Assembly (NCBI RefSeq): GCF_022568795.1
Contig: NZ_JAKZHU010000001.1
Span: forward strand, 62,001 to 126,000
Origin: Arsenicicoccus dermatophilus
GTDB taxonomy: Bacteria > Actinomycetota > Actinomycetes > Actinomycetales > Dermatophilaceae
Direction: 5' to 3'
DNA: 64,000 nt
The position numbers and the translations under genes are program-made. Shown in pieces: positions 9,966 to 63,507 of the stretch. Each line of letters opens with the position of its first letter. Position 1 is the first letter of the stretch. A model generated the notes under the pieces. That model was given only the letters and a program-made list of their open reading frames with translations. It ran no database searches and was not told the origin of the DNA.

Positions 9966-9993
9966 TCGGCCGACCCGCCCCTGATGCCCAGGG

Positions 9994-10165: not shown

Positions 10166-10173
10166 GGGCGGCC

Positions 10174-11820
10174 ATGTCTGCGGTGATCCAGACGATCGCG
10201 GGCTTAGGGCTGGTCGGGGTGGTACTCGCCCTCCTCCACGTCCCGCTGGGCACCTGGCTGCACCGGGTCTTCGCCGACGACACGGACTGGGCGGTCGAGC
10301 GCCTGGTCTACCGTCTCGCGGGTGTGGATCCGCGGTCCGAGCAGCGGTGGTCCACCTATGCCTTGTCGGTCCTGGCCCTGGCCGCCGTGAGCGTCCTCGG
10401 GCTGTGGTCGCTGGTGCTGGTCCAGGGACTCCTGCCGTGGTCCTTCGGCCGGTCCCAGGACTGGCACACGGCGCTCAACACGGCGATCAGCTTCACGACC
10501 AACACCAACTGGCAGTCCTACGCCGGTGAGTCCAGCGCCGGGCACGTCGTGCAGATGGCGGGTCTGACCGTTCAGAACTTCTTGTCGGCGGCGACGGGCC
10601 TGGCCGTGGCTGTGGCACTGATCCGGGGGCTGGCCCGTCAGCGCACGGACCGGATCGGCAACTTCTGGGTCGATCTCGTCCGCTCCTGCATCCGCGTCCT
10701 TCTGCCGCTGTCGGTCGTCGGCGCGCTCTTGCTGATCCTCGGGGGAGTCACCCAAGATCTCGCGGGTCCGCATGTGATGCCGACGCTGCAGGGTGGTCAG
10801 CAGATCCTGCAGGGCGGTCCGGTCGCCAGTCAGGAGGCCATCAAGCTGTTGGGGACCAACGGGGGCGGTTTCTTCAACGCCAACAGCGCCCATCCGATGG
10901 AGAACCCCGACGCCTGGACCAATCTCCTCGAGATCATGCTGGTGCTGGCGATCCCCTTCTCGTTGCCTTATGCCTACGGCCTGATGGTGGGAGACCGGCG
11001 TCAGGGCAGTCTGGTGGCGGCGGTGATGGTTCTCCTCTTCACCGGTATGACGCTCCTCCTGGCCTGGGTCGAGCAGTCCACGACGGCTCTGCCCACGGGG
11101 GGTATGGAGGGCAAGGAGCAGCGCTTCGGCATCGCCTGGTCGGCGATCTTCGGAGCCGCCACGACGGGCACCTCCACCGGAGCGGTCAACTCGATGCACG
11201 ACTCCTACAGCGCTGGCGGCGGTGGGCTGCTCATGCTCCACATGATGCTGGGAGAGGTCTCCCCCGGCGGCGTCGGCACCGGGCTCTACGGCATGCTCGT
11301 CCTCGCGATCATCACCGTCTTCGTCGCCGGGCTCATGGTGGGTCGCACCCCCGAGCTGCTGGGCAAGACCATCGGACGCAGCGAGATCACGTGCGCCGCC
11401 CTGGCCTCGATCACGATGCCCGCGCTGGTCCTGACCTTCACCGCGGCCTCTGTGGTGCTTCCCACGGCTCGGGAGGCACTGCTGCACACGGGCCCGCACG
11501 GGCTCTCGGAGATGCTCTACGCCTTCACCTCCGCGGCCAACAACAATGGCTCGGCCTTTGCCGGGATCTCTGCGGACCAGCCCTGGCTCAACCTGACGCT
11601 CGGCCTGTGCATGCTCGTGGGCCGGTTCGCGACGATCGTGCTCATCCTCGCTCTGGCCGGGTCTCTGGCCGCCCAGACCCGACGGCCGGTCACGAGCGGG
11701 ACGATGCCGACGCACACGCCGCTGTTCGGCGTGCTGCTGACCGGGATCATCCTCGTCCTCGCCGGCCTCACCTTCTTCCCTTCCCTTGCCCTCGGTGCCC
11801 TCGCGGAGGCTCTGTCATGA
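10174..11820 (+). CDS. kdpA: Potassium-transporting ATPase potassium-binding subunit KdpA
   Basis: Membrane subunit of the high-affinity KdpFABC pump that binds and conducts K+ through a channel-like pore. 548 aa, normal length, ten or so membrane spans. The four selectivity-filter loops are visible: TNTNWQSY near residue 109, [13 protein letters not shown] near 230, GTSTGAVNS near 332 and NNNGSAFAG near 450. ATG at 10174. The stop overlaps the kdpB start (ATGA), so translation is coupled. Intact; no missing filter residues seen. Confidence 0.97.
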
Positions 11821-13943
11821 CGATCCCCATGCCCCTCGACCCCTCGACGGCCGATCGCGACGAGCGGCCGGCCCACCCGGCCGCCGGGCCGCCCGACCGC
11901 TCCCGAGACGGGGCCTCGCTCGTGCGCACCGCCCTCGCGGCTCTGCCCGACGCCCTGCGCAAGCTCGACCCCCGGCACGTCGTGCGGTCGCCGGTGATCT
12001 TCGTGGTCTGGATCGGGACCGTGCTCACCACGGTCCTGTGCCTGACGGATCCCACGGTCTTCGCCGTCGGGGTGACGCTGTGGCTGTGGGCCACGATGGT
12101 CTTCGCCAACCTCGCAGAAGCCATCGCGGAGGGGCGGGGCAAGGCCCAGGCCGCCACGCTGCGCCAGACCCGCACCGAGACCCCCGCCCGGCGGCTGCTC
12201 CCGGACGGTCGCGAGGAGCTCGTGTCCGGCCAGGACCTGCAGCTCGGTGACCGGGTGGTCGTCGAGGCCAGCCAGGTCATCCCGGGAGACGGAGACGTGG
12301 TGGACGGGGTCGCGACCGTCGACGAGTCCGCCATCACCGGGGAGTCTGCGCCGGTCGTGCGCGAGTCCGGCGGTGACCGTTGCGCTGTCACGGGTGGCAC
12401 CACCGTGCTGTCGGACCGCATCGTCGTCCAGATCACCAGCCGACCGGGCGAGACCTTCATCGACCGGATGATCTCCCTGGTGGAGGGCGCCGCGCGCCAG
12501 AAGACCCCGAACGAGGTCGCCCTGTCTATCCTGCTGATCGTCCTGACCTTGATCTTCGTCCTCGCGGTCACGGCGCTGCAGCCCATGGCGGTCTACTCCG
12601 GTCGTCCGCTCAGCCTGGTGGTGCTGGTGGCGCTGCTCGTCTGCCTCATCCCGACAACCATCGGCGCGCTCCTGTCCGCCATCGGAATAGCGGGCATGGA
12701 CCGGCTCGTGCAGCGCAATGTGCTGGCGATGTCCGGGCGGGCCGTGGAGGCGGCCGGGGACGTGTCGACCCTGCTGCTGGACAAGACCGGCACGATCACC
12801 TTCGGTAACCGTCGCGCCAGCGACGTCATACCGGTCGCAGGCGCCACACGCGCCGAGCTGCTGCGGGCCGCTCACCTGTCGTCGCTGGCCGACGAGACCC
12901 CCGAGGGCCGCTCCATCGTCGACTACGCGGTGGCCGAGGGTGGCGCCGGTGAGCTCACGACCGCCCTGGACCTGCAACGGGCGGGTGCCACCGTGGTGCC
13001 CTTCACCGCCCAGACCCGCATGTCGGGTGTCGACCTCGCCGACGGGACCCGGATCCGCAAGGGGGCCAGCTCGGCGGTGACCGCCTGGGTGCACGCGGAT
13101 GGGGGACACATGGTCCACGACGTGGACGACACCGTGGAGTCCGTCAGTCGCGCCGGGGGGACCCCGCTCGTCGTCGCCGTCCAGGATCCCGGCCAGGTTC
13201 CCCGCCAGCTCGGCGTGGTCTTCCTCAAGGACATCGTCAAGCCCGGTATGCCGGAGCGCTTCGCGCAGCTGCGGGCCATGGGCATCCGCACCGTGATGAT
13301 CACGGGGGACAACCCGCTCACGGCGGCGTCCATCGCGAAGGAGGCGGGGGTCGACGACTTCCTCGCCGAGGCCACCCCCGAGGACAAGATGCGCCTCATC
13401 AAGCAGGAGCAGTCCGGGGGCCGGCTGGTCGCCATGACCGGGGACGGCACCAACGACGCCCCCGCCCTGGCCCAGGCAGACGTGGGCGTGGCCATGAACA
13501 CCGGCACCTCGGCTGCCAAGGAGGCCGGCAACATGATCGACCTGGACTCCGACCCCACCAAGCTCATCGACATCGTCGCGATCGGCAAGCAGCTGCTCAT
13601 CACGCGCGGCGCGCTCACGACCTTCTCCATCGCCAACGACATCGCCAAGTACTTCGCGATCATCCCGGCGATGTTCGTGACGCTCTACCCCGGTCTGGAC
13701 CGGTTGAACGTGATGCGGCTGCACAGTCCCGAGTCGGCCATGCTCTCCGCCGTCATCTTCAACGCGCTGATCATCGTGGCGCTGATCCCCCTGGCACTCA
13801 GGGGAGTGGCCTACCGCCCGCTGTCGGCGGCCGCGCTGCTACGACGCAACCTGTTCGTCTACGGCCTCGGCGGCGTCATCGCGCCGTTCGTCGGCATCAA
13901 GCTGATCGACCTCCTCATCTCGCTCCTCCCTGGACTTCGGTGA
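11817..13943 (+). CDS. kdpB: Potassium-transporting ATPase ATP-binding subunit KdpB
   Basis: P-type ATPase subunit that supplies energy to KdpFABC. 708 aa from the ATG overlapping the kdpA stop. The N-terminal about 40 residues are a variable tail before the first membrane span. Actuator motif: ITGES. Phosphorylation motif: [13 protein letters not shown]. Hinge motif: [23 protein letters not shown]. Membrane-domain hallmark: a proline-containing [17 protein letters not shown] span that is characteristic of KdpB. All catalytic motifs are intact. The stop overlaps the kdpC GTG start. Confidence 0.97.
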
Positions 13944-49711: not shown

Positions 49712-52700
49712 AGGTGGACTCCCGCTGACGCGGGACGGAGTCCTCGGCCTGCTCGTCGACGGCGGTGAAGTAGGAAGCACTCCCGCGGACGCGGGACGGA
49801 GAGGATCGGCTTGGCGGGCGCTTCGGGTGATGGTGGAAGTACTCCCGCGGACGCGAGACGGAGGTGACCGTTGAGAAGGCCCTCGCCTTCCTGAAGGAAG
49901 CACTCCCGCGGACGCGGGACGGAACCGGTGGCGACGCGAAGAAGTACGCCGAGGCGGGAAGCACTCCCGCGGACGCGGGACGGAGTCGCCGTCCGGGACG
50001 GCGATCGGCTGCGATGGGGAAGCACTCTCGCGGACGCGGGACGGAGGTGGTGGCTGCTCAACGAGCCCGATAAGTTGGTGGAAGCACTCCCGCGGACGCG
50101 GGACGGAGGACACCCCGACGAGCACACCCGAGCCGGTCCTGGAAGCACTCCCGCGGACGCGGGACGGAGGCCTCCCGCTCGATCGCGAGCCGCACCAGCA
50201 TGGAAGCACTCCCGCGGACGCGGGACGGAGTCCTGGGCGAACCACGCGACGAGGCGGACGAGGGAAGCACTCCCGCGGACGCGGGACGGAGCCCGCCACA
50301 CCCCGTCGACGATCCGGCGAAAAGGAAGCACTCCCGCGGACGCGGGACGGAGGCACGGACAGGGTGGCGCTACGCCCCACGGTGGGAAGCACTCCCGCTG
50401 ACGCGGGACGGAGTCGAGTACGACCACCCCCGCTCCAAAGCCATCGGAAGCACTCCCGCGGACGCGGGACGGAGTCCTCGGCGGTGTTTCCATCGGGCGC
50501 GTTGAGGGAAGCACTCCCGCGGACGCGGGACGGAGTCGTCACGGATGGCGAGGCGCAGCGGGCCGAGGGAAGCACTCCCGCGGACGCGGGACGGAGAGTA
50601 GGGGAACGGGGTGCCGTCGATGGTGAGGGGAAGCACTCCCGCGGACGCGGGACGGAGGAGAAAGTCTTGAGGCGGGCGCCCATCAGCCGGGAAGCACTCC
50701 CGCGGACGCGGGACGGAGGCTCCAGGATCCGCCGTGAAGACCCCGGCGTAGGAAGCACTCCCGCGGACGCGGGACGGAGCGAGGCGAGCCAGATCAACGA
50801 GGCCTACGAGCGGAAGCACTCCCGCGGACGCGGGACGGAGTCCCGCTGGCCACGCCACCACGACTGCGTCTGGGAAGCACTCCCGCGGACGCGGGACGGA
50901 GTCCTTCGTGGTCCCCCCGAACATGCTGGAGAGGGAAGCACTCCCGCGGACGCGGGACGGAGACGCGGTCGCGCGGTTGCGGCGGGCTGGGCTGGGAAGC
51001 ACTCCCGCGGACGCGGGACGGAGGTGAACGTGTAGGTCATGCCCTGCGTCACCTTGGAAGCACTCCCGCGGACGCGGGACGGAGCGGCGGGTGCGCTGCC
51101 AGTCGATGAACAGGATGGAAGCACTCCCGCGGACGCGGGACGGAGCTGGCGGGGGCGGGTTGTCCGGGAAACTGTGGGGAAGCACTCCCGCGGACGCGGG
51201 ACGGAGGTGACGCGCATGAACAGGCCGTCGTTGATGCGGGAAGCACTCCCGCGGACGCGGGACGGAGTCACCGATGACGAGACCCGTTGTCAGGTCGGTT
51301 GGGAAGCACTCCCGCGGACGCGGGACGGAGGGCACGAGCCGCAGCTCACCGGCCGCGCCCATGGAAGCACTCCCGCGGACGCGGGACGGAGTCAGAGGGG
51401 GCCCCGCCGCGCGCGGCGGGGGAGGAAGCACTCCCGCGGACGCGGGACGGAGGCCGCGGGGTGGCGCATCGCGTTCCCGGGCCTGGAAGCACTCCCGCGG
51501 ACGCGGGACGGAGTCGTCCCCCAGCCCTATGTTGCCTGGACCCAGGGAAGCACTCCCGCGGACGCGGGACGGAGGCTGCGGTGCGTCGGGTGGCGGCGTC
51601 GAGGTCGGAAGCACTCCCGCGGACGCGGGACGGAGGGGTTGGGGATGGAGAAGCCGGCCGCGGCGGCGGAAGCACTCCCGCGGACGCGGGACGGAGATCA
51701 GCAGCGCCAGGCGCAGGTGCTCGGCCCAGGAAGCACTCCCGCGGACGCGGGACGGAGTCATCGCGTCGGCGCTGAAGAAGGAGGAGCTCGGAAGCACTCC
51801 CGCGGACGCGGGACGGAGGTCGATCTTCCCCGAGAAGTAGATCCCGGCCCGGAAGCACTCCCGCGGACGCGGGACGGAGCCGTCGGGCAATTCAAGAACT
51901 CACCTCTGCGCGGAAGCACTCCCGCGGACGCGGGACGGAGACAAGCTCTCCCGCCGCGCCGGGTCCCACGGCGGAAGCACTCCCGCGGACGCGGGACGGA
52001 GAATCCGCCACCGCCGCCGCCGGCGGCTGCGAGGGAAGCACTCCCGCGGACGCGGGACGGAGCCCGACCCGGACCACAGCATCGACTCGATGTGGGAAGC
52101 ACTCCCGCGGACGCGGGACGGAGCTGCTGGGTGGTTACGCGGAGTGAGTGTTCATGGAAGCACTCCCGCGGACGCGGGACGGAGCAGGCCCTCGTGCGGC
52201 CCATCGATGCGGATCAGGAAGCACTCCCGCGGACGCGGGACGGAGGGTCTTCCCACCTGGCGCGAGCGTCCTTGCCGGGAAGCACTCCCGCGGACGCGGG
52301 ACGGAGCCGACAAGCCCTACGCCGTCGACCGCACCCCCGGAAGCACTCCCGCGGACGCGGGACGGAGTCGCCACCCCAACCAAGACCGACCACCAAGCGG
52401 GAAGCACTCCCGCGGACGCGGGACGGAGCGGCGGTGCTCGGGGCCGCGGTGGATGGTGCGGGAAGCACTCCCGCGGACGCGGGACGGAGGCACGCGCGCC
52501 TTCTCCAGCTGCCTCAAGACCGGAAGCACTCCCGCGGACGCGGGACGGAGGCGGTGATGGTGGCGGCGCACCAGGGGGAGCCGGAAGCACTCCCGCGGAC
52601 GCGGGACGGAGTCGGTGAGGGCCTGGTCGACCTTGGCGGCGTTGGAAGCACTCCCGCGGACGCGGGACGGAGGTGCGGGCTGTGAGAGTGACCCTCCCCT

Positions 52701-53281
52701 GATCGGAAGCACTCCCGCGGACGCGGGACGGAGGCGACGGTCACGGCCGGCTGCTGGAAGGGCACGGAAGCACTCCCGCGGACGCGGGACGGAGAGGCCC
52801 GGGCGGGCCGTCGGCGCGGCGAACTGTGGAAGCACTCCCGCGGACGCGGGACGGAGTGGAGGTGCTTGAACGACACCCAGCCGTCAGTGGAAGCACTCCC
52901 GCGGACGCGGGACGGAGATGGCTTCGATCCGCTCAGCCAGCGAGGCCATGGAAGCACTCCCGCGGACGCGGGACGGAGGGCCTGCGGGGTCGCCCACAGC
53001 TCAGCCCACAGGAAGCACTCCCGCGGACGCGGGACGGAGTCCTTCATCTGCACGAGGAAGACGAAGAGAGGGGAAGCACTCCCGCGGACGCGGGACGGAG
53101 AGTCGCGGTCGAGGTCGAGCTCCTGGGGGTGGAAGCACTCCCGCGGACGCGGGACGGAGCCGGGGTCATCCTGTGACGGCGGTGTGCGCCGGGAAGCACT
53201 CCCGCGGACGCGGGACGGAGGCTACATGGTCGGTTGGGAGGAAGACGGTGCAGGAAGCACTCCCGCGGACGCGGGACGGAG
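49712..53281 (-). CRISPR. Type I-E CRISPR array, 59 repeats and 58 spacers
   Basis: 29-bp repeat; on the plus strand it begins GGAAGCACTCCCGCG and ends GCGGGACGGAG. As transcribed (minus strand) it has a 6-bp stem TCCCGC/GCGGGA, loop GTCC and handle GTGCTTCC, matching the E. coli type I-E repeat position by position. Repeats start every 61 bases with 32-nt spacers, except 33-nt spacers before 49835, 50080 and 52828, a 34-nt one before 51302 and a 30-nt one before 53131. The left end is oldest: the repeat at 49712 has five mismatches, and 49835, 50018 and 50385 carry one or two changes. All others I read are identical. The leader is at the right end, next to cas2. I found no obvious spacer match inside this window, but did not compare exhaustively. 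Confidence 0.99.
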
Positions 53282-53311
53282 CCCGCCTCACCTGCTAGTT
53301 TGTCAGAGCCG
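53282..53311 (-). promoter_or_regulatory. CRISPR leader, only 30 bases outside cas2
   Basis: The gap between the cas2 stop and the first (newest) repeat is only 30 bases. A functional leader with promoter and integration signals normally needs more, so it must extend into the cas2 coding region, or the array is read through from the cas operon. CTGACAAACTAG near 53297-53308 (minus strand) is the only AT-rich patch. Confidence 0.6.
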
Positions 53312-53650
53312 TCACCATCCTGGGTCGATCTCCTCGCCCGTGGCGCTGACCTGGCTCTCGTCGTGCTGCCTGGAGATCAGGGCGAGCCCGTGGTGGTCCA
53401 CGACGGCATACCTGCTGGACCCGACGCTGCGCAGCTCAAATCCCTGCTCGGTCGCGGCCGGATAGACCGCCAGCGCGTAGCCGATCTCGTCTCCCCGCAC
53501 CCAGTCCTCGACCTGGGACCACAGCTCGTCCCGGATCCGGGCAGACACGGTCCCGACGAAGACACCGGGATTGATCTCGACGTACCACTGCGACAGGGCC
53601 CCGCGCAGTCCCGGCGACAGCCGCTCGGTCACCAGCACCTGCAGACTCAC
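53312..53650 (-). CDS. cas2: CRISPR adaptation protein Cas2e
   Basis: 112-aa subunit of the Cas1-Cas2 integrase; the Cas2 dimer is the scaffold between two Cas1 dimers during spacer integration. From the GTG at 53650, whose GTGA overlaps the cas1 stop. Type I-E form (CasB-like Cas2e): VTERLSPGLRGALSQWYVEINPGVFVGTVSARIRDELWSQV, then GYALAVYPAATEQGFELRS. The C-terminal tail of about 15 residues is hydrophilic. Last gene of the cas operon; its 3' end probably contains part of the CRISPR leader. Confidence 0.95.
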   Translation of the reverse strand: MSLQVLVTERLSPGLRGALSQWYVEINPGVFVGTVSARIRDELWSQVEDWVRGDEIGYALAVYPAATEQGFELRSVGSSRYAVVDHHGLALISRQHDESQVSATGEEIDPGW

Positions 53651-54636
53651 GTCGACCACTCCGCGTGCGACCAGGTCGCCTCCACCTCGCCGGCCGGGCC
53701 CCACAGCTGCAGGGCGTCGATCGTCCAGCCGTCGTCGACCTCGACCCCGAGGACCATGTCGATGTCGGACACGATCTCGGGCAGCAGGCGGAGCATCCGC
53801 ACCTCGTCACGCAGCGCCCGCAGGGCGGCGTTGGAGGGATCGGCGTGCCCCTTGAGGGAGAACGCGAGCGGGATCGTGACCCTCGTCTTGTACATGTCCG
53901 CGATGTCGAGCGTGAACGACTGCCTGTTGCCCGTGTGGATGATCCCGAGCCCGGGGCTCAGACCGAGAGCGATCACGACGCTGTTGACGATCCCGTAGAG
54001 CGCCGAGTTGCCCGCGTTGAGAGCCAGGTTGACCGAGTCAGGAGGTCCCATCTCCGGGCGGGTTCCCGTGTTGCGCCGCCAGGATCGCAGCCGGTGCTTG
54101 CGGGCATGCTGCTCGTAGACGGCCCGCATCCGCAGGCCCTCCACCCCTCTCATCTGCTCGATCGTCGCGCCCGCGAAGGTTGCGGAGGAGGTCCCGGGGA
54201 AGCGTTTGAGGTACATCCGCCGGGCCGCCTCCGCGCGCAGCTCGGGGTCGGTGCTGACGACGGCCTGCCGTTGCAGGCGGTCCGTCGGGGCGTATGGCGA
54301 CAGGAAGGCGCCGTAGGACCTCACGGCCCCACCGCCGACGAAGCTCGCGGCGCACCCTGCCCCCGCCAGGTGGGCCGCCGCCTGCTGGGTGATGGACGTC
54401 CCCGGCCCGAGCATGAGGCACGACAGCGTGGCGACGGGGATCTGCGTGGAGCGGGTGCCGCCCTCCACCTCGATCACCGCCACCGTGCCGTTGTCGGACT
54501 GGTGGATGGCACAGCGATCGAGGTAGAGGAAGGACAACCGGTCGTCGGTGCGGGTCAGCAGCAGCGCCCGAGGCTTGGCGAGCGTCAGCGGCGTCGAGCG
54601 GTCGCCACCCCCGGCCGTGCTCCCTGGGGCAGTCAT
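53647..54636 (-). CDS. cas1: CRISPR integrase Cas1e
   Basis: 329-aa metal-dependent nuclease/integrase that inserts new spacers at the leader end. The catalytic Glu lies in QMRGVEGLRMRAVYEQHA. His and Asp lie in LGLSPGLGIIHTGNRQSFTLDIADMYK, the classical E-H-D triad of Cas1. The N-terminal beta domain contains YLDRCAIHQSDNGTVAVIE and TLSCLMLGPGTSITQQAA. Length is slightly above the E. coli enzyme (305 aa) because of a 15-residue Gly/Ser-rich N-terminus. ATG at 54636 overlaps the cas6e stop. Intact, so adaptation is probably functional. Confidence 0.97.
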   Translation of the reverse strand: MTAPGSTAGGGDRSTPLTLAKPRALLLTRTDDRLSFLYLDRCAIHQSDNGTVAVIEVEGGTRSTQIPVATLSCLMLGPGTSITQQAAAHLAGAGCAASFVGGGAVRSYGAFLSPYAPTDRLQRQAVVSTDPELRAEAARRMYLKRFPGTSSATFAGATIEQMRGVEGLRMRAVYEQHARKHRLRSWRRNTGTRPEMGPPDSVNLALNAGNSALYGIVNSVVIALGLSPGLGIIHTGNRQSFTLDIADMYKTRVTIPLAFSLKGHADPSNAALRALRDEVRMLRLLPEIVSDIDMVLGVEVDDGWTIDALQLWGPAGEVEATWSHAEWST

Positions 54637-55265
54637 CCCAGCGGCCGGACGGTGAGCAGTCCTGCGCCATAAGCCTTTCCACGCCCCACCCCGTCGAGCC
54701 GCAGCTGCTGCAGAGCAGCGGCGTCGGCGACCGTGGCCAGACCGTCCACGGTGTCTACGACGAAGCGGGGCGGGGTGCGGTCACGGTGGCGCCGGTGGTG
54801 ATGGGTGCGTCGCGTGTGCCCGAAGACCTCGTCGAGGGTCAGGGCGTCGGACACCTTGGCCGACACCCACTCCGGGACCTCGTCCGGAGCGAGGGTCGAC
54901 AGGCTCTCCCGCCGCCGCCCCGCGTCGTCGCGCTCGGTGCGCCGACGCACGGCGTTGACCGCGACGCGGAAGAGCACCGGGGTGCCCGCCGCCAGGTCCC
55001 AGCCGCCCCGAGGGATCGTGGTGGCCCGGGCCTGAGGCGGGGCGGTCTCCAGCGCATGTCGCGACTGGACGAGCACGGTGGAGCTGCCGTCCAGGTGATG
55101 GTCCACGCGATAGAGGATCTGACCGGTGGCCCGCCGCTCGTGCGCTGCGCCGGGCAGCTCGCGCTCGAAGAGCCGCATCACGGCACGGTGGGACTCGCCG
55201 TGATCGGTCCAGTCGGTCTTGACCGCGTGGGTGGGAAAGACCGTCCAGAAGGGTGCCTCGGTCAT
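54633..55265 (-). CDS. cas6e: CRISPR RNA endonuclease Cas6e
   Basis: 210-aa crRNA-processing enzyme that cuts each repeat at the base of its hairpin, leaving an 8-nt 5' handle, and stays on the 3' hairpin in Cascade. It has two ferredoxin-like folds. The active-site His is probably in the N-terminal HGESHRAVMRLFE. The C-terminal glycine-rich loop GVGRGKAYGAGLLTVRPL is the RAMP signature. The segment TRRTHHHRRHRDRTPP is unusually basic and may bind RNA. ATG at 55265 overlaps the cas5e stop. Confidence 0.95.
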   Translation of the reverse strand: MTEAPFWTVFPTHAVKTDWTDHGESHRAVMRLFERELPGAAHERRATGQILYRVDHHLDGSSTVLVQSRHALETAPPQARATTIPRGGWDLAAGTPVLFRVAVNAVRRRTERDDAGRRRESLSTLAPDEVPEWVSAKVSDALTLDEVFGHTRRTHHHRRHRDRTPPRFVVDTVDGLATVADAAALQQLRLDGVGRGKAYGAGLLTVRPLG

Positions 55266-56002
55266 CGGGTCAGGTGCTCCTTCGCCCACGCGAGCTGCTC
55301 GGCCCGCCGTGCGGCTGTCGGGGGAGAGACGAGGCCGCACTCCCGGTGTCGGGGCGCGGCGTGCCCTCCCGTGGCCTCGTAGACGCGCAGCCGCTCCGGC
55401 GTCGGGTGGCCGTCCATGGCGACCAGGGGGATCTGCGACATCAGATCGCCCACGTCCTGGGGCCCGCGCCCCAGGTGGAAGGGGTAGGAGGGGCCGTTCG
55501 CCATACGCCCCAGGTAGGGCATGAAGGTGGGCCGCCGGAAACCCTCCTGCAGCCGTTCGTCGAGCTCGTCGTCCAGCGCGTCGACGACGCAGAGGAACTC
55601 GGCGTGCGGCAGGAAGGTGCGGCCCTCGGAGAACTGCACCTTGTTGGTCCCGCCGGTGAGGTTGATGTCCTTCACGCGGTAGGGCTTCACCTTGTCCCCG
55701 CGCCGGACGGCCGAGGTGACCTCGTGCAGGGCCACCGAGCGGTGCCAGACCTCGGTGGCGCGTCCGGGGGGAGGCGGCACCGCCACCTGCAGGTCCACCT
55801 CTGCCGGGTTGGTGCGGTCCACACGCACGTGCAGGGTGAACCGATCCAGGAGGGTGAGGTGATCGCTGACCCCGAGGCAGGCGCCGAGGAGGCCGGCGAC
55901 GCCGGACGCGGTAGGCAGCGGGAGCGTCCGGACGGTGCGGTGGGAGGCGCTGTAGCCGGCCCAGCTCTGGATCGGGGCCGCCAGGCGGATGACGTGCCGC
56001 AT
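55262..56002 (-). CDS. cas5e: Cascade subunit Cas5e
   Basis: 246-aa RAMP protein that holds the 5' handle of the crRNA in Cascade. The N-terminal IRLAAPIQSWAGYSASHRTVRTLPLPTASGVAGLLGACLG is diagnostic for Cas5e. The thumb-like region includes VKDINLTGGTNKVQFSEGRTFLPHAEFL. Normal length for the family (E. coli 224) with a somewhat long C-terminus. ATG at 56002 shares one base with the cas7e stop (TGATG). Confidence 0.95.
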   Translation of the reverse strand: MRHVIRLAAPIQSWAGYSASHRTVRTLPLPTASGVAGLLGACLGVSDHLTLLDRFTLHVRVDRTNPAEVDLQVAVPPPPGRATEVWHRSVALHEVTSAVRRGDKVKPYRVKDINLTGGTNKVQFSEGRTFLPHAEFLCVVDALDDELDERLQEGFRRPTFMPYLGRMANGPSYPFHLGRGPQDVGDLMSQIPLVAMDGHPTPERLRVYEATGGHAAPRHRECGLVSPPTAARRAEQLAWAKEHLTR

Positions 56003-57231
56003 CAGCGACCCGCGTAGACCTGCTCGACCACGAAGTCGAGGAGTGCCTCCAGGTCGGGGACGGTGGTGGTCTCCGCAAAGGTCGCGTCGCCGACGCGACC
56101 CGCGACGACGGAGTCGCCGAAGAGGGTGGGGTCGAAGTCCCTCGCCTCCTTCTGGCGGCGGGCGAGCTCGGCGACGGCCTGGGCGGTGTAGCCACCGCGG
56201 TCGTCGCGGGTGGCCAGCGCCTGCTCGAAGTCGTAGGTGACGCGGAAGTTCTGGACCTCGGCGAGGACGAGTGCGGGGAGCGTGCCGGAGTTGGTGGCGT
56301 TGACCTTTCCCTTGGGCAGTGCGAGCACCAGGGCGCGCACCAGGTCCTTGAGCGCCTCCTTGGCCCCCGGCTCGCCGAAGGCCGTCCAGGACGCGGCCAG
56401 CTGATCGACGTCGATCGTGAAGGTGCGGTAGTAGGTGCCGGAGGTGAAGTAGCTCTCGTCGATGTGTGCCGCGCCGGCGTGCCCCGTCTCCAGGTCCTCC
56501 ACGGCCGTGAAGTAGTCGGTGACGAGCTGCATGCGGTGGACCGTCGTGGCGTGCGAGACGGCGACGGCGGCATGGGTGGCCAGGCCGGCCTGCGCGGCGA
56601 ACATGCGGCCGAAGGCGGCGATGTCCAAGGCATCCGACCGAGCGCTGCGGACCAGCTCGGTCGGCTCCTCCCCTCGACCGGTGTGGGCGGCGTGGACGGC
56701 GGCGGCGAAGGCCACGATCTCCGAGGTGGACAGGTAGACGATCGTGTCCTTGGTCTCGGCCTCCTGCTCCTTCTTCGCGCCCTTGTCCTCGGTCGTCTCC
56801 TCGGCGGTCTCGGCCGCGGCGGTGGCGACGGCCTCCTCCAGGCTCCTGCCCTGGGTACGCTTCAGCAGGTCCCGGACCTTCGCGGTCTGCTTGGCGAGCG
56901 CCTTGGCGTCGGTCTTCTCGGTGTAGAGCGCACGAACGGCCGTGACCGCGGTCTTGATCACGGCATCGACGTCCACCTGGGTGCCGTCGGCGTCGGCCTG
57001 GTCGAGCACCCGTCGGGTGATCTCGAAGGCCGCGAGGCGGGTGCGGGTCGAGTCCTCGTGGCCCGCCTGGCGATAGGCCTGACGCGCGGCACGCTTCAGG
57101 GACTGGCTGGAGAGCCGGGCACGCTGGACACCCCCGTCGAACTGGCTCTTGGGCAGGCCGTTGGAGTCGCGGTTGAGGTTGTGCAGCGGGAGCGTGACGA
57201 TGACATGGCAGGTGACGAAACGGGTGGTCAT
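56002..57231 (-). CDS. cas7e: Cascade backbone subunit Cas7e
   Basis: 409-aa backbone RAMP, six copies of which wrap the guide and flip out every sixth base. The opening HVIVTLPLHNLNRDSNGLPKSQFDGGVQRARLSSQSLKRAARQAYR is the family hallmark. It is longer than the E. coli protein (363 aa) because of a roughly 40-residue acidic insertion near residues 135-160, rich in Glu/Lys, probably a solvent-exposed loop. The C-terminal half (AAFGRMFAA, AVAVSHATTVHRMQLVTDYFTAVEDL, HIDESYFTSGTYYRTFTIDVDQL) is conserved. ATG at 57231 shares one base with the cse2 stop. Confidence 0.96.
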   Translation of the reverse strand: MTTRFVTCHVIVTLPLHNLNRDSNGLPKSQFDGGVQRARLSSQSLKRAARQAYRQAGHEDSTRTRLAAFEITRRVLDQADADGTQVDVDAVIKTAVTAVRALYTEKTDAKALAKQTAKVRDLLKRTQGRSLEEAVATAAAETAEETTEDKGAKKEQEAETKDTIVYLSTSEIVAFAAAVHAAHTGRGEEPTELVRSARSDALDIAAFGRMFAAQAGLATHAAVAVSHATTVHRMQLVTDYFTAVEDLETGHAGAAHIDESYFTSGTYYRTFTIDVDQLAASWTAFGEPGAKEALKDLVRALVLALPKGKVNATNSGTLPALVLAEVQNFRVTYDFEQALATRDDRGGYTAQAVAELARRQKEARDFDPTLFGDSVVAGRVGDATFAETTTVPDLEALLDFVVEQVYAGR

Positions 57232-57836
57232 CAGCGGGTGCCTTCCGTGGTGGTCCGGGTGGTTTCAGGGGCCTCGGCGGTCGTGCCGGGCTCCGGGTCG
57301 GGTCGGGTGGTGTAGAAGTCGTGCACGACGGCACGCCGGATGTCCTGGGACCTCTGGCTGAGGCCGTCCCCCCAGGAGGTGAGGGTGCGCGCCAGGTCGT
57401 GGAAGTTGACCGGCACGTGGTGCTGCGAGCACAGGTCCACGAGATGGCCCAAGGAGATCGCGGCGTTCTCGGTGTCGAGCAGCGGCAGGGTCTGCACCCG
57501 CTGCTCGACGTGGTTGCCACCGATCGCACGGTGGAGGCGGGCCAGGGCCCGCCCGACGGTCGCGTAGGGCGAGTCGTCCTGCGGGGCTCCTGTCGCTCCC
57601 GCGCAGATGGCGGCGGCGCGCCGCAGCCCGGCGGCCTGGGTCGGGCGGAGCGTGGCGGGGACGAACCGCTCGGTGGCCCCGTAGGCCGCGACCTCGGTCG
57701 CCGGGGTGATGGCTCGTCGGACGGACGCCGTCCATCCGGCATACGATCGGTCGTGGCGACGGTCGAGCACGACCTGGACGAGCGGGCTGGTGTAGCGCGG
57801 CCTCTCGTCCGGGGCGAGCTCGGGCTGGGTGGTCAT
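57231..57836 (-). CDS. cse2: Cascade small subunit Cse2 (Cas11e)
   Basis: 201-aa all-helical small subunit, two copies per Cascade, which stabilises the displaced DNA strand. Conserved segments include SYAGWTASVRRAI, TVGRALARLHRAIG, VEQRVQTLPLLDTENAAISLGHLVDL and VPVNFHDLARTLTSWG, followed by a DIRRAVVHDFY region. The C-terminal 25 residues are a Pro/Thr/Glu-rich tail absent from E. coli. ATG at 57836 overlaps the cse1 stop by four bases. Confidence 0.93.
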   Translation of the reverse strand: MTTQPELAPDERPRYTSPLVQVVLDRRHDRSYAGWTASVRRAITPATEVAAYGATERFVPATLRPTQAAGLRRAAAICAGATGAPQDDSPYATVGRALARLHRAIGGNHVEQRVQTLPLLDTENAAISLGHLVDLCSQHHVPVNFHDLARTLTSWGDGLSQRSQDIRRAVVHDFYTTRPDPEPGTTAEAPETTRTTTEGTR

Positions 57837-59401
57837 GAGGCGGTCTCCTGGGTCGGGGTGGCGGGGTGGCGCGGGGCTGCGGTGCCGGCGGTGAAGCGGG
57901 CCCGAGCCTGGTAGATCTGCGGTGCCGTCGCGAGGGTGAGCAGCGGCTCCGTGGCGGCCTCGAACGCCGCCCGGGCTCGCTCGGTCATCCGGCTGCGCAC
58001 GGCAAGGGTGTCGACGTCATCGCCCTGGGCGAGGCGATGCACGGCGTCGAGCACGGGCTCGTCCAGGGCGGACATCACCGTGCTGCGCACGAGGTGGCGC
58101 CGGGCGCTGCGGTGGTCGATTCCCCCGGCGAGCAGGGCCGAGCCCAGCGCCTTGCGGATCTTCTCCACGTGGGTCATCACGGCCTCGACCGGGATCCGGG
58201 CCTCCACGAGGAGCTCGGCGGCGGGCACCTCTTCCCACTGGGAGAGCTCCCTGTTCCCATAGGTGTCGCCCTCCTCGTGGTGGAAACCGACCCGGATGGG
58301 TGCGTCCGGCAAGGGGACGGCGCGGGGTTCGTAGATCCATGCCTGCAGAGAGGACTCGAGGGCGTTCTGGTACCACCGCTCGTAGCCCTCGGCGCTGCGC
58401 AGGGAGGCGTCGGCGTGGACGTACTTGGTGCCCTTGGTCTTGGTGTTCACCACCCGGCAGTAGTCGCCCGACGCCACGGCCTTGGCGAAGGCCTTGACAC
58501 CCTCTATGCCGGTTGTGGGTCCGTCCTGCTCGACGATCGGCACGGGCCGACGCGTCAGCCCACGGGTGACCGCCACAGGTATGCCGTCCTGCCAGCGCAC
58601 GTGCGCCCGGCTTGCGGTCCAGGTGCAGCGCCACAGACTGCCCTGTCGTGCGCCGCCGACCAGCTGCTCGTCGGGCTGGAAGGGTTCCCCCGACGGGCCG
58701 CGGTCCTGGTCCAGCCAGGCCGGCAGGGCCTTCTCCCGCAGCCAGGCCGCGCGAACGTTGAGCATCAGGGTCTCGGCCAGGGTCTCGCCCAGCAGGTGGA
58801 AGACGGTGTCATGCGGCCCGCCCGCCGGTGCCCCGGAGATCGGCGAGCACTTCGGGCCGGAGGTGGGGACGTAGAAGGACGCACCCGCGCCGTTGCTCGG
58901 TTTGCCGTGGAACCACGAGACCACGAGCAGCAGGAAGAGGACGGCGGGGTCGGTGGCGTCCCGCGGCTCAGGGCTGGTGCCCCAGGTCGCGCTGGATGCT
59001 CCGGGCACCCTCAGGTGCAGGGTCTCCAGGGAGGTGTAGCCCTTGGCGAGGTCCGTCGCCGTGGGCTCGGGGGTGTGCCACTCCTGCAGCAGCGGCCTGT
59101 CCCGGTCGGCCAGGTCGAACAGACCGGCGTACCGGTCAAACACCTCGTCGACGCGCTCGGCCGGGAAGCGAGCTGGATCCCGGTATCCCCCTGGGGGAGA
59201 GCCCCGCAGCATGACTGCCGCGAGCGACTCCAGGAACCGCAGCAGGGCCTCCCGCTCGACGGGCAGCAGGGAGTCGTCGAGCCCGGTCAGCTTGTGCGCC
59301 TGAAGGAAGGTCTCACGCAAGGAGACGAGGTCCGAGGAGTCTCCTCGGCGCACCGGGATGCACGGCAGGTCGACGACATTCGTCGTCGTGGTCAGGGTCA
59401 T
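57833..59401 (-). CDS. cse1: Cascade large subunit Cse1 (Cas8e)
   Basis: 522-aa large subunit that recognises the PAM and recruits Cas3. It begins with the variant leader MTLTTTTNVVDLPCIPVRRG then DLVSLRETFLQAHKLTGLDD, as in the family. Conserved elements: LLRFLESLAAVML, FDLADRDRPLLQEWHTPE and WFHGKPSNGAGASFYVPTSGPKCSP. The C-terminal four-helix bundle runs from about residue 390. Length matches E. coli (502). ATG at 59401 overlaps the cas3 stop. If the crRNA-like mini-array upstream of cas3 is real, this subunit would have to accept its target flank. Confidence 0.95.
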   Translation of the reverse strand: MTLTTTTNVVDLPCIPVRRGDSSDLVSLRETFLQAHKLTGLDDSLLPVEREALLRFLESLAAVMLRGSPPGGYRDPARFPAERVDEVFDRYAGLFDLADRDRPLLQEWHTPEPTATDLAKGYTSLETLHLRVPGASSATWGTSPEPRDATDPAVLFLLLVVSWFHGKPSNGAGASFYVPTSGPKCSPISGAPAGGPHDTVFHLLGETLAETLMLNVRAAWLREKALPAWLDQDRGPSGEPFQPDEQLVGGARQGSLWRCTWTASRAHVRWQDGIPVAVTRGLTRRPVPIVEQDGPTTGIEGVKAFAKAVASGDYCRVVNTKTKGTKYVHADASLRSAEGYERWYQNALESSLQAWIYEPRAVPLPDAPIRVGFHHEEGDTYGNRELSQWEEVPAAELLVEARIPVEAVMTHVEKIRKALGSALLAGGIDHRSARRHLVRSTVMSALDEPVLDAVHRLAQGDDVDTLAVRSRMTERARAAFEAATEPLLTLATAPQIYQARARFTAGTAAPRHPATPTQETAS

Positions 59402-62088
59402 GAGGTCTCCTCGTCGGTGAGCGTGGTGAGCCCTAGCACGTCGTCGTAGACAAGGCCTGCTTCGGCCAGAGCCTCGGCGGAGACGGGACGGGCGTGGGTT
59501 AGCAAGGGGTGGGAGGACTTCCAGTCGGGGGAGGTCGCAGTGGCCACGGCGCAGACACGGTCGACCCAGCTGGCTCCGGAGACCGTGAAGAGGCTGCCCA
59601 GGGCCTCGCGGACGCGGTCGTCGTCCGTCATCGCGGCCAGCTCGGCGGGGCTCGCTGGCGTGCCCCGTGTCCCACCGACCAGCACGAAGGTCGCCGAGGG
59701 CAGGGTGGAGTAGCGGGTCGTCAGCTCCAGGTCGCCGACTCCGTCCATCGATGGCGGCGGACTGGTGGCTGCGGCCAGGGTGGCGTGGGTGGCGGGGACG
59801 AAGGGATCGACGAGCCCCAGGACTCCTGCGGCGAGCGTGCCGGCGGCCTCCTGGCGCATGCTGGCGTCGACGAGCTCGGCGAGGCGCAGGTCCGCCAGAC
59901 TGCTGCGTGCCAGGTCGTAGGTGGTGCGGTCCACGAAGTCCTGCACGTCCTCGGGGATGCGCAGGGTGGGGTGCTCCTCCAGCGATCGGGCCACCGCAGC
60001 GAGCTCGTCGGCGAAGTAGGGAAGCGCCACCTGCTCGGTCAGGGGGCCGGCGCCGTCGGGGACGACTACGTGAAGGGCACGCTCGGCGGGTCGGGCATCG
60101 CTCTCGTCGAGCAGTCGCTGCATGCCGGGCAGGAAGCGCCACAGGCGCCCGGCGCGCTGCACCAGCGAGGCCGCGGGGGCGATGTCGCAGGCCATCGACC
60201 AGAAGGACACGTCGAGGCTCACGTCCAGCACCTGGGTGGCGCACACGACGAGCGGGCGTCGGCCCCTCGGCGTACCGGGCCCCAGGCGCGCCTCCAGCTC
60301 ACGCTCGATCTCGGCGCGATGAGCGAGCGTCATCCGAGAGTGCAGCACCAGCACGTCCACGTCGCGGCCGGCGAGGTCCGCGCCGAGCAGGCGGGCCGTG
60401 GCGACGGCGTCGTCGACGCGGGAGCGCACCACGGCGAGGCTGCACCGGGGATAGCGGTCGTACGTCGCGACCACCCACTCTCGGTGGAGCTGCGTGGCGT
60501 CGTCGGTGTGGGTGATGGGCAGGCGCAGATCGGGGACGGCCGTCTGCAGCGCCGGGCTGCTCGGGGCGTCGTGCCCGGCCAGCCAGTGCGCTGGATAGGC
60601 CGTCGCCTGCTCGCCGCTCGCCTCTCGTCCCGTGTAGGCGTCCTCTAGGGCGCGACGTTGCCAGGTCGGCATGGTGGCGGACAGGACCGTGACGCGGGTG
60701 CCGGTGCGGCCCCACCACGCCATCAGCGCGGCCAGCAGCGTGGTCTGGTAACGGTCGTAGGTGTGCACCTCGTCGAGGACGACGTGGTGGTTGGTGAGCG
60801 CGAGCAGGCGCAGTGGCAGGTGGCGCTGGGGGAGCGACCCGGCCAGCACCTGGTCGCAGGTCGCCGCGACGACGGGAGCGAGCAGCCGGCGGGTGCTGGT
60901 GCTGAACCACTCGAAGCCGTGGCCCTCGGTGGCGGGGCAGCGGTAGAGCGAGGCGAACTGGTGGGAGAGGAGCACGCCGTTGCCGGTGCCGGAGAAGGCC
61001 CGCTGCAGTCGTCGCTGCATGGCGTCCGTGGTCGCTCGCGTGGGCAGGGCGAAGATCAGCCCTTCGTCCTGCTCGACCTGGTGGCGCAGCAGCGCTGCGC
61101 CGGTCTTGCCCTCGCTCGTCGGGTAGGCCACGAACCACAGGCCGTCACCGACCTGCTCGGCGTCCTCCTGCAGGGGGCGGAGGCTGCGGACGCGACCGTC
61201 CCCGTCCAGACCGACGGCGGTGCGGTGACGGTCGGTCGGTGCGGAGTAGGAGCCCAAAGACGTGGTCACGTGTGTCGCGAGCTCGGCGGCGCGAGTCTGC
61301 GCCCAGGTGGGAGACATGGGGTCGAGGCCTTGCTCGATCAGGGCGAGCCCGGCATCGACGACGGCCGCCTCCGAGGCCAGCCAGTCGGACAGCTGCACGA
61401 TCCCGGTGATGAGCATCGTCACGACGCCGGCCAGCTCGGGCCCCACCCTCGGAGACTCGGACGGATGCACACCGCACACCTGGGCGACCAGCTCGAGGTG
61501 CTCGGTCTGCGCCTCGCCCCAGCGACCGGCCGTGGCGTCGGCCAGGACGGTGGCCGTGGCGGCAGGCGGTGATTCGAGCCAAGCTCCGTGATGCCCACCG
61601 ACAGCCAGCGCCAGCCAGGAGGTCTCGGCGCTCATGGCGGGAATGCCTCTGTCTCGCGCCGACAGCAGACACATGCCGAGGAAGTCGTGGCGGCGCAGAT
61701 CCTCACGTGTCTCCGCGGCCGCGGCGGCGTCGACGCTCATCGGGGAGTACCCATCGGCCATCAGGGCTGCGCTCAGGTCCTGCCGCCAAGGCACAGTCGG
61801 ATCCCTGCGCCACGGGCGTAGCTGGAATCCCGCCGAGATCTTGAACAGGTCGTGCGCGCCCGCTGCCAGCGTGACCCACGCGCGCGCTGTTGCCTGCTCA
61901 TGTGGCGAGGTGCCCCCCTCGAGCTCGCGGGCGAGGAGTCGACGGACTCGACCAGTCAGGACGGTGTCCCACACCACCCCGGCGATGACGGTCGTGTCGA
62001 GCAGGTGGGCCGAGACCGGGTATGGCGCTTCGCCTGACAGCAGCCGCTCGGGTCTCTTCGCCCACAGCGCGGGATGACCGGCCCCCAT
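59398..62088 (-). CDS. cas3: CRISPR nuclease-helicase Cas3
   Basis: 896-aa effector from the ATG at 62088 (MGAGHPALWAKRPERLL), chosen because family similarity begins there and a G-rich ribosome site (GGGGGA) precedes it. The frame stays open to 62229 but that extension has no ribosome site and no conservation. The N-terminal HD nuclease has His79-Asp80 in AAGAHDLFK and the GGHHGAW metal motif. The helicase has TSEGKTGAALL (Walker A), VVLDEVHTYD (DEVH box), VLSATMP (motif III) and a C-terminal VQRAGRLWRF (motif VI). It is the first gene of the operon cas3-cse1-cse2-cas7e-cas5e-cas6e-cas1-cas2. All motifs are intact, so interference is probably active. Confidence 0.95.
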   Translation of the reverse strand: MGAGHPALWAKRPERLLSGEAPYPVSAHLLDTTVIAGVVWDTVLTGRVRRLLARELEGGTSPHEQATARAWVTLAAGAHDLFKISAGFQLRPWRRDPTVPWRQDLSAALMADGYSPMSVDAAAAAETREDLRRHDFLGMCLLSARDRGIPAMSAETSWLALAVGGHHGAWLESPPAATATVLADATAGRWGEAQTEHLELVAQVCGVHPSESPRVGPELAGVVTMLITGIVQLSDWLASEAAVVDAGLALIEQGLDPMSPTWAQTRAAELATHVTTSLGSYSAPTDRHRTAVGLDGDGRVRSLRPLQEDAEQVGDGLWFVAYPTSEGKTGAALLRHQVEQDEGLIFALPTRATTDAMQRRLQRAFSGTGNGVLLSHQFASLYRCPATEGHGFEWFSTSTRRLLAPVVAATCDQVLAGSLPQRHLPLRLLALTNHHVVLDEVHTYDRYQTTLLAALMAWWGRTGTRVTVLSATMPTWQRRALEDAYTGREASGEQATAYPAHWLAGHDAPSSPALQTAVPDLRLPITHTDDATQLHREWVVATYDRYPRCSLAVVRSRVDDAVATARLLGADLAGRDVDVLVLHSRMTLAHRAEIERELEARLGPGTPRGRRPLVVCATQVLDVSLDVSFWSMACDIAPAASLVQRAGRLWRFLPGMQRLLDESDARPAERALHVVVPDGAGPLTEQVALPYFADELAAVARSLEEHPTLRIPEDVQDFVDRTTYDLARSSLADLRLAELVDASMRQEAAGTLAAGVLGLVDPFVPATHATLAAATSPPPSMDGVGDLELTTRYSTLPSATFVLVGGTRGTPASPAELAAMTDDDRVREALGSLFTVSGASWVDRVCAVATATSPDWKSSHPLLTHARPVSAEALAEAGLVYDDVLGLTTLTDEETS

Positions 62089-62173
62089 GATTCCCCCGTC
62101 CCCGTCGCCACCGTTGCATGTGGAGACGTCTCCTGAGGCGTCCCCTAGCGTGACGGCAGACGTGAGATCTGCT

Positions 62174-62207
62174 GCACCCCAACGATCCTTGTTGACCGTT
62201 GGGGTGC
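62174..62207. repeat. 11-bp inverted repeat in the cas3 leader region
   Basis: GCACCCCAACG (62174-62184) and its exact complement (62197-62207) with a 12-base loop. It lies between the predicted cas promoter and the cas3 start, so it would form a stable hairpin in the cas mRNA leader or serve as a protein operator. Confidence 0.75.
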
Positions 62208-62242
62208 CCCCCGGGGATGAGCATCCCATGATTCAGCAACTT

Positions 62243-62274
62243 TGTCTATCCCCTCCAAACTCCCCTGGTTGCAA
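62243..62274 (-). promoter_or_regulatory. Putative cas operon promoter, matched by the mini-array guide
   Basis: On the minus strand TTGCAA (62274-62269) and GATAGA (62250-62245), 18 bases apart, form a weak but possible -35/-10 pair for cas3. The stretch 62274-62260 equals the first 15 bases of the guide encoded at 62371-62339, except for position 6. The flank immediately 5' of the match reads GAC. Promoter call is tentative; the sequence match is directly visible. Confidence 0.6.
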
Positions 62275-62309
62275 GTCTCTATCTCAGTGGCCGACGAACG
62301 TGCCGTCAT

Positions 62310-62400
62310 GCAGCTACTCCCGCTGCCGCGGGACGGGGTGGGGCGTGGTGCGATCGCTCCCCTGGGTGCAAAGAAGCACTCCCGCGCGAGCGGGACGGTG
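62310..62400 (-). ncRNA. Two-repeat degenerate CRISPR mini-array: candidate Cascade-guiding regulatory RNA
   Basis: Two repeat-like units in the same orientation as the main array, 62372-62400 (24 of 29 matching) and 62310-62338 (22 of 29), enclose a 33-nt guide (62339-62371). As transcribed, both keep the complete 6-bp stem TCCCGC/GCGGGA; changes lie mainly in the loop and outside the stem. The 5' unit keeps the handle GTGCTTCT (7 of 8). The 3' unit has lost its handle (GTAGCTGC), which Cas6e would cut off anyway. A crRNA-like product of about 62 nt is therefore predicted. Its guide starts TTGCACCCAGGGGAG and matches the cas3 upstream region. Possible -10 boxes TACCCT and TAGGGT lie just upstream at 62419-62404. 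Confidence 0.75.
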
Positions 62401-62436
62401 CTGACCCTAACTCAGGGTAGTAAGCAGAACCGTCGC

Positions 62437-63507
62437 TCAGCCCTCCACGTCGAAGTGGTGGGCAATCTTGTCGAGTGTGAACTCCTGGCGGAGCTTGCAG
62501 GCGCTGTTCGTGTTGGCGAACATACCTGTCTCCCAGACAGCTTCAGAGGCGGGGCGGGCGTCGTTCCAGCGCACCGGAATGAACCACTCGGCCTGATCCG
62601 GGTCGTCGCTGTCGGTGTACGTACCCTCCAGCGCGCACGACGCCAAGAGTTTGGGGTCGCCGTCCACCGTCACCGTGGTCTCTCGTAGGAGCGATGCCGC
62701 CGCAAGCGTCGTACCGACGGCGACATATCCGCGCTGCGGCAGGTGTACGTTGACACGCGCGCCGGGTGGCACGTTGCGCAGGGACTGGGAGTACCACTTG
62801 CCCCCGCCCGCTGAGACGAACCCATATCGCAGGCCGTCGGACCAGGCGCGGCTGCCGGGGGCGTCGCCGAAGGACACGAACCAGTCGGTGCCGTTCCAGT
62901 CGGCCTGCTTGCCCGGGCGGTTGCGTGGTCCCGTGCTGGCTTCGTCCCCCTGCGTCGTGAGCCAGCTCCGAGCGAGGTAGCGACGACCGTCGTCTTCCAG
63001 GTGGGTGAAGAAGGCAGCGTTGATAGGGACGCCGTACTCGCGAAGGTAGGTGATGATCCTTTCGGAGGCCGGGTCGAGGTCCGATGCCAGGACAACCAGG
63101 TGATGAGCGGTGTTGAGGTCGTCGGGTGGGGTAGCGCCGAAGCGTTCCGAGAACGCCGTCTCGAACGGCTTGTCCAAGAACCCCTGAGCGATCTCCAGGA
63201 TGTCGTCCCGGCTCAGCTGTCCGACCCACTGGCCGTAGTCCAGCACCTGGGCAACCACCTCGCGGGGGGTGCGGTTCCGCTTCAGCTCCAAGACATGGAC
63301 GTCCCCCTCGTTGTCGATGCCCAGTAGGTCGATGAACTTACCGTGAGCGGTCCGCACCTGCCGCCCGATGATGAGGAGTGGCGGGTCGATCAGGTCAGGG
63401 TCGGCGACGAGGTAGTTCTCCAGCCAAGACTCCATGGGGAGCGGACTTGGCGGCACCCTGACGGGAATTCCCTCGCTCACACGCCACAGGCCCGTCTTGA
63501 GCGTCAT
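62437..63507 (-). CDS. PD-(D/E)xK nuclease-domain protein (NucS/DUF91-like)
   Basis: 356 aa. Residues about 25-110 carry a PD-(D/E)xK nuclease core: Glu30, then Asp60 in KFIDLLGIDNEGDVHVLELKR with Glu74-x-Lys76, and QVLDYGQWV as the following helix. This matches the nuclease half of NucS/DUF91-type proteins but without the NucS N-terminal DNA-binding domain. The C-terminal 200 residues (WFVSFGDAPGSRAWSDGLRYGFVSAGGGKW, and others) look like a separate beta-rich module that I do not recognise. ATG at 63507. It lies 37 bases upstream of the mini-array in the same direction, so read-through could feed it. A defence or repair role is plausible, not shown. Confidence 0.75.
   Translation of the reverse strand: MTLKTGLWRVSEGIPVRVPPSPLPMESWLENYLVADPDLIDPPLLIIGRQVRTAHGKFIDLLGIDNEGDVHVLELKRNRTPREVVAQVLDYGQWVGQLSRDDILEIAQGFLDKPFETAFSERFGATPPDDLNTAHHLVVLASDLDPASERIITYLREYGVPINAAFFTHLEDDGRRYLARSWLTTQGDEASTGPRNRPGKQADWNGTDWFVSFGDAPGSRAWSDGLRYGFVSAGGGKWYSQSLRNVPPGARVNVHLPQRGYVAVGTTLAAASLLRETTVTVDGDPKLLASCALEGTYTDSDDPDQAEWFIPVRWNDARPASEAVWETGMFANTNSACKLRQEFTLDKIAHHFDVEG

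Follow-up and report, generated by a model that had tools for sequence, protein, structure and literature searches.

Does the degenerate CRISPR unit that lies upstream of cas3 in Arsenicicoccus dermatophilus encode an RNA with which a type I-E system restrains its own expression? We addressed this question in a stretch of 64,000 nucleotides (the window), near the end of which cas3, cas8e, cse2, cas7e, cas5e, cas6e, cas1e and cas2e follow one another in that order on the minus strand, as in type I-E. An earlier note on the same DNA had proposed that the unit specifies a crRNA-like autorepressor of the cas operon. The sections below take up the unit, its match upstream of cas3, the behaviour of this match in other genomes, and the readings that compete with autorepression.

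The cas operon and its main array

With its proposed start, cas3 spans 59398-62088, the cas3_core model scoring above its cut-off and the full-length Cas3 model below. The adjoining cas8e/cse1 (57833-59398) is divergent, with a Pfam CRISPR_Cse1 match at E 2.2e-21 and NCBIfam casA_cse1 below cut-off. NCBIfam models score above cut-off for cse2 (Cse2, 57231-57836), cas6e (Cas6e, 54633-55262), cas1e (Cas1e, 53647-54636) and cas2e (Cas2e, 53312-53704), and just below it for cas7e (casC_Cse4, 56002-57231) and cas5e (casD_Cas5e, 55262-56017); cas6e would be the processor of the mini-array transcript. The main CRISPR array (49712-53281, minus strand) holds 58 repeats at up to four mismatches and a terminal degenerate repeat at 49740-49712; 54 of the 58 copies are identical, and 52 of the 57 spacers are 32 nt long, against 33 nt for the guide of the mini-array. 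It begins about 30 bp after cas2 (53282-53311 lies between them), and the relative G037, introduced below, is alike, with a similar short intervening stretch. The array and the cas genes may be co-transcribed.

The mini-array and its guide

Between cas3 and the gene at 62437-63507, which encodes a NucS-like domain, the minus strand carries from 62400 to 62310 a 33-nt guide flanked by two degenerate type I-E repeats. The 5' repeat (62372-62400) is identical to the array repeat at 24 of 29 positions, with five differences, and has the handle GTGCTTCT; the guide, TTGCACCCAGGGGAGCGATCGCACCACGCCCCA, occupies 62339-62371; and the 3' repeat (62310-62338) retains 22 of 29 positions, with seven differences. 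The earlier note had claimed just such a unit at these coordinates, with the Cas6e stem kept in both repeats and the handle kept solely in the 5' one. Repeats and guide are present there, the 6-bp stem TCCCGC/GCGGGA is intact in each repeat, and the 3' handle is lost, but the 5' handle is not entirely kept, as it differs from the array handle GTGCTTCC in its last base alone. Folded whole, the 91-nt mini-array precursor favours a long-range helix over two separate hairpins.

The first 15 bases of the guide match the minus strand at 62274-62260 (TTGCAACCAGGGGAG) at 14 positions, position 6 being the sole mismatch, and past position 15 the agreement falls to 3 of 18 bases, so that both the match and its collapse are as the earlier note had them. 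The triplet in the PAM position is GAC (62275-62277, minus strand), which also stands at the target of G037. With position 6 left free, guide and target are the sole occurrences of the 15-mer in the 3.5-Mb genome.

The weight of this match was judged against null guides, which were real array spacers scored on the same flanks and on both strands. By the plain score one of 336 null spacers reaches 14/15 on the window flanks; with positions 6 and 12 skipped, the observed 13/13 is reached by 0/336 and 0/400, and a further draw gives 0/300 by either score. Within the 221 bp between the mini-array and the start codon, the best score among 135 spacers is 12 on the same strand, and on the opposite one a single spacer reaches 14. 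On the flanks of G037, two of 336 null spacers equal the observed match by either score, and one of 400 does so in another draw. The probability of 1e-5 to 1e-4 that the earlier note had estimated for a chance match is therefore too optimistic, since the spacer null (1/336, 0/336 and 0/400) points to a value of about 3e-3 or lower when this locus is taken by itself.

Covariation in a relative

Of 186 family genomes searched, three have this type of Cas3, namely the window's own, G037 (69% identical) and G086 (49%), and 25 have any Cas3 match at E 0.001. Among five genomes of the genus only the window's own has it, and at E 1e-100 the genomes sampled from the order (396) and from the class (394) likewise returned the own genome only. 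The window Cas3 alone gave 24 pattern matches and no relative against genome contigs, the Cas3 alignment A1 gave 17 pattern matches and no relative against viral contigs, and none of 203 plasmid records had a Cas3 with 80% cover; A1 against genome contigs pointed to one locus, in Leekyejoonella antrihumi.

G037, which belongs to another genus, has mini-array, target and cas3 in the same layout as the window. The two guides share only 6 of 15 bases and so do their targets, and each guide fits its own target (14/15 in the window, 13/15 in G037), whereas swapped guides reach at most 10/15 on the other's leader. Both pairs are mismatched at position 6 and both follow GAC, and the G037 pair is unique in its genome. 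The 5' handles track their own arrays, GTGCTTCT going with GTGCTTCC in the window and GTGATTCC with GTGATTCC in G037, where the predicted 5' end of the RNA is GUGAUUCC, the counterpart of GUGCUUCU in the window. An alignment of related genomes, which the earlier note had proposed as a check for covariation of guide and target, thus speaks for its reading: the pair has changed together, and register, GAC and promoter position are kept.

G086, in which this type of Cas3 also occurs, showed no mini-array in the scan. Inspection by eye of the stretch upstream of its cas3 (L005) revealed an inverted repeat, TTGACAATGC...GCATTGTCAA, in the place of the mini-array, which possibly represents another kind of regulation.

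A survey of 124 loci

A wider survey covered 124 loci from 121 genomes, chosen by Cas3 similarity and type I-E-like by Cas3. Besides the window they comprise 23 family loci and a further 100 drawn from among those that two sampled searches listed; in these searches 56 of 396 order genomes and 64 of 394 class genomes gave a match. L059 (a weak hit with another repeat type), L035, L037 and L060 (extra pieces) and L069 and L070 (short stretches) were left out of the count. Several stretches start less than 2.5 kb from cas3, L045 has nothing upstream, and the 5' ends of cas3 were estimated for several partial matches.

Two degenerate repeats spaced as in an array are found upstream in 31 of the 124 loci, a set that retains likely unmasked ordinary array units (e.g. 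L111, L123, L130, L148 and L151), and in none of the 124 downstream control stretches, which consist of cas3 itself and are coding, unlike the upstream stretch. L038 and L043, seen in earlier scans, escaped the uniform one, and the first nine mini-arrays, the window's included, had been hand-picked before it was run. Twelve of the 31 candidates have a supported target, that is, one within 350 bp that is equalled by no more than 5% of the 400 null spacers, where 1.6 would be expected at this threshold. No supported target was found in the other 19, some of which look like ordinary array pieces; L079, L115 and L121, among them, have true-looking mini-arrays about 260-360 bp before cas3. No target was found in L038 and L043 either, and the matches in L051 and L046 were not significant in the null-spacer test. 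Related strains in which the mini-array persists with no seed match upstream of cas3 were named by the earlier note as an observation that would count against it. Such loci do occur in other lineages (L038, L079, L115 and L121), but the close relative G037 is not one of them.

The supported targets of L073 and L117 are located on the opposite strand and upstream of the mini-array, which may there be part of the cas3 leader and share the cas3 promoter.

Pairing signature and PAM

Pairing was read by leaving one position out at a time: the target was picked by the other 14 positions (at least 11/14) and the left-out position was then scored. Matches occur in 2 of 15 cases at position 6 and in 4 of 12 at position 12; at the remaining positions the rate ranges from 7/12 to 8/9 (58-89%), and with null guides from 20 to 34%. 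At a threshold of 10/14 the two positions match in 3/19 and 5/16, and at 12/14 in 1/9 and 3/7, position 12 being the weaker signal. Position 9 is low as well (10/20, 6/10 and 4/7 at 10/14, 11/14 and 12/14, respectively), as is position 15 at 7/12, and for position 9 we know of no explanation in the geometry of Cascade. Four unrelated pairs (L049, L073, L084 and L117) have their mismatches within the first 15 bases at exactly positions 6, 9 and 12. Among the 12 supported pairs position 6 is mismatched in 11, which is not clearly different from the 75% expected if it were merely free; target choice for these pairs skipped positions 6 and 12, and the leave-one-out rates alone are unbiased. Because every sixth guide base is flipped out in Cascade, as the available part of PMC5904413 has it, the low match rates at 6 and 12 can be read as positions that behave as unpaired, the signature of Cascade. 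Neither a protein operator nor chance would be expected to yield it.

The PAM triplet played no part in picking the targets. Its middle base is nevertheless A in each of the 12 supported pairs, compared with 147 of the 720 best hits of null spacers, and the triplets are AAC (5), AAT (4), GAC (2) and AAG (1). AAG, reported as the PAM of both E. coli and S. avermitilis in the portion of PMC4762764 consulted, is thus found in just one of the 12. The 29th repeat base is C in 57/57 and 76/77, and a PAM with C as its last base would agree with this, provided that the S. avermitilis rule given in that portion holds. As for the spacers of the array, two have matches in Arthrobacter phage genes (29/32, preceded by TCC, and 28/32, preceded by GAT), two plasmid records match weakly, and the searched part of the G037 array has no phage match.

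These results invite the generalisation that actinobacterial type I-E CreR pairs follow a common code set by Cascade, with pairing at positions 1-5, positions 6 and 12 and often 9 free or avoided, a match that ends at about 15-21, AAC, AAT or GAC in place of AAG, and guides tuned to bind without licensing Cas3. We offer it tentatively, as an idea that could well be right but has the odds somewhat against it.

The putative cas3 promoter and leader

From the sequence around the target we infer a cas3 promoter at 62220-62248 (minus strand), made up of TAGACA (62248-62243), a gap of 17 bp and GATGCT (62225-62220), which aligns with TTGACA-17-CATGCT of G037. A consensus promoter scan of 62080-62520 found none for either cas3 or the mini-array, this one lying below its threshold. 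The putative -35 box begins 26 nt past the first target base in the window, 25 nt past it in G037 and 27 nt past it in G010 (counted by hand), and the full 33-nt protospacer (62274-62242) extends over the box.

The start codon of cas3 is probably the ATG at 62088 rather than that at 62229, with which the long open reading frame begins. The Cas3 ATG of G037 aligns with Met48 of this long frame (62088), and the 35 open codons before it contain no ATG, GTG or TTG; moreover, the ATG at 62229 stands beside the putative -10 box (62225-62220). With a start at 62088, the target therefore precedes the start codon by about 170-190 nt, at the putative promoter.

The cas mRNA would then have a 5' leader of 126 nt (62088-62213, minus strand), its transcript start being a guess. 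This leader folds better than its shuffles (z -4.64, none of 200 as good), as does that of G037 (z -2.93, 2 of 200 as good), and it opens with a 14-bp hairpin containing one G-U pair (62207-62174; z -4.39 for a 48-nt fold, 0 of 200 shuffles).

Competing explanations

The structured leaders bear on the best surviving alternative, an addiction module of the CreTA kind in which a toxic small RNA within the 126-nt leader is under the control of the repressed promoter, the guide RNA acts as antitoxin, and cas3 merely follows. CreTA resembles what is proposed for the window in that a crRNA-like RNA with degenerate repeats directs Cascade to a promoter, and the guides of CreA also bring about repression through partial complementarity (PMC9458426 and PMC12737573, each in the part available). 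The window differs from CreTA in that the target promoter precedes cas3. Against an addiction module, no toxin gene was seen; no second promoter was found between leader and cas3, in a scan that detected none at all; and the leaders of the window and G037 are only partly similar, hairpins in mRNA leaders being common. The first repeat is the more diverged one in CreTA according to the same portion of PMC9458426, in which the terms CreR and I-E were not found, whereas in the window the 5' repeat is better kept (five changes against seven). We regard an addiction module as unlikely.

A somewhat smaller chance goes to the view that the unit has no regulatory role and is what is left of an ordinary array, with a spacer acquired in the past from the cell's own cas promoter and tolerated since mutations weakened it. 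Self-targeting spacers decay, and the repeats are indeed degenerate, but a relic would hardly keep its stems and 5' handles, nor would independent pairs with unrelated letters retain seed complementarity beside cas3. A double operator of a DNA-binding protein, with the CRISPR-like hairpins incidental, would account for two near-identical 15-mers lying 97 bp apart in one intergenic region. It is nonetheless very improbable, as one copy begins exactly at the guide position in both the window and its relative, other loci have different sequences, match rates fall at 6 and 12, and the middle base of the PAM is A in 12/12. Least credible of all is a chance match, which one of 336 null spacers likewise achieves at 14/15 on the window locus, but which leaves aside the 0/400 of the position-aware score, the 12 of 31 loci supported at the 5% threshold, the PAM bias and the covariation with G037.

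Proposed autorepression by a CreR-type RNA

We thus favour, with a probability of roughly 0.85, the reading of the mini-array as a CreR-type cas-autorepressing RNA, whose expression, processing, binding to Cascade and repressive effect are predictions. The autorepressor reading of the earlier note gains support, at the level of sequence, from the covariation with G037, the pairs at other loci, the unpaired positions 6 and 12, and the A in 12 of 12 PAMs. Three features of CreR that sequence can test are present in the window, and none of those tested failed: a degenerate mini-array adjoins the cas operon and is compatible with Cas6 (stems intact, 5' handle complete but for one base); complementarity is partial and PAM-proximal, with the target upstream of the putative -35 box of a cas promoter; and the match between guide and target is kept as sequence drifts, both between the window and G037 and in 12 of 31 candidates.

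According to this CreR-type reading, the mini-array would be transcribed from the minus strand, and Cas6e would cut after both kept stems to release a crRNA-like RNA consisting of the handle GUGCUUCU, the 33-nt guide and a 3' hairpin. Loaded into Cascade, this RNA would guide it through GAC and pairing at 14 of the first 15 bases, all but the flipped-out position 6, so that the complex would cover the -35 box of the cas3-cas8e-cse2-cas7e-cas5e-cas6e-cas1-cas2 operon together with the bases immediately before it, blocking transcription. With a match that ends at base 15, the R-loop would be too short to license Cas3. Repression would track free Cascade, easing when crRNAs compete for it or when anti-CRISPR proteins disable it.

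What is known from E. coli partly agrees with this scheme. In the available part of PMC5904413, AAG and as few as five seed bases suffice for Cascade to bind, and robust interference needs at least 18-25 bp, so a 15-base match would be placed to bind without cutting. The same part reports that promoter repression by Cascade drops greatly with as few as six PAM-distal mismatches and that off-target sites of Cascade look transcriptionally inert; given this sensitivity to mismatches, a natural CreR would have to compensate through local design or abundance.

The window would therewith offer a well-supported case of RNA-guided CRISPR self-restraint in a divergent actinobacterial type I-E system. 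The evolutionary record of its relatives serves as a genome-only readout of how guide and DNA pair in natural Cascades, and in this readout position 6 is almost unconstrained, position 12 little constrained, and the PAM rarely AAG. Natural guide-target pairs open a direct way to test seed-only repression, the choice of PAM and how self-cleavage is avoided.

Relation to known systems

CreR, the cas-regulating RNA, was reportedly described by Liu et al. in Cell Host Microbe in 2023 for types I-B, I-E and V-A. The same three types are given in the accessible part of PMC13131331, and CreR is also summarised in that of PMC12737573; the mechanism has thus been published, type I-E included. Like the window, CreR has a mini-CRISPR beside the cas operon, a guide partly complementary to the cas promoter, and a proposed autorepression by the system's own effector. 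The window differs from the CreR examples in its divergent actinobacterial type I-E system, in GAC in place of AAG and in its 33-nt guide. Among the papers listed in searches of the open-licence literature, none deals with this locus in its title or the opening of its abstract.

In type II systems, a long form of the tracrRNA is said to bring about autorepression by Cas9. There, as proposed for the window, an effector represses its own promoter through a natural short guide, but the effector is of class 2, the guide is derived from the tracrRNA, and there is no mini-array.

Other matches and neighbouring genes

Two further matches were considered and set aside. The 3' end of the guide together with the repeat could pair as an antisense with cas6e (54679-54705; 24/27, 17 of them contiguous), but 20 of 600 random 91-mers do equally well and the longest such match in the part of G037 examined is 10. 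In G010, a third exact match to the guide lies inside a coding gene, rhodanese-like to judge by its translation, and has no A-centred PAM; we took it to be a chance occurrence.

In L039 and L051 the mini-array points away from cas3, and a candidate target lies at the start of a small gene that precedes cas3. The small gene of L039, which has no Pfam match, is presumably DUF3800-like.

Fusions of about 1375-1385 amino acids, in which Fic/DOC domains are followed by Cas3 domains, occur in two genera, at 8327-12451 (minus strand) in L046 and at 7045-11202 (plus strand) in L049; the term Fic domain is absent from the papers among the matches listed in our literature search. A mini-array precedes the fusion gene in both loci, with a match to the promoter region that is good in L049 and not significant in L046. 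A similarly long Cas3 frame is present in G104.
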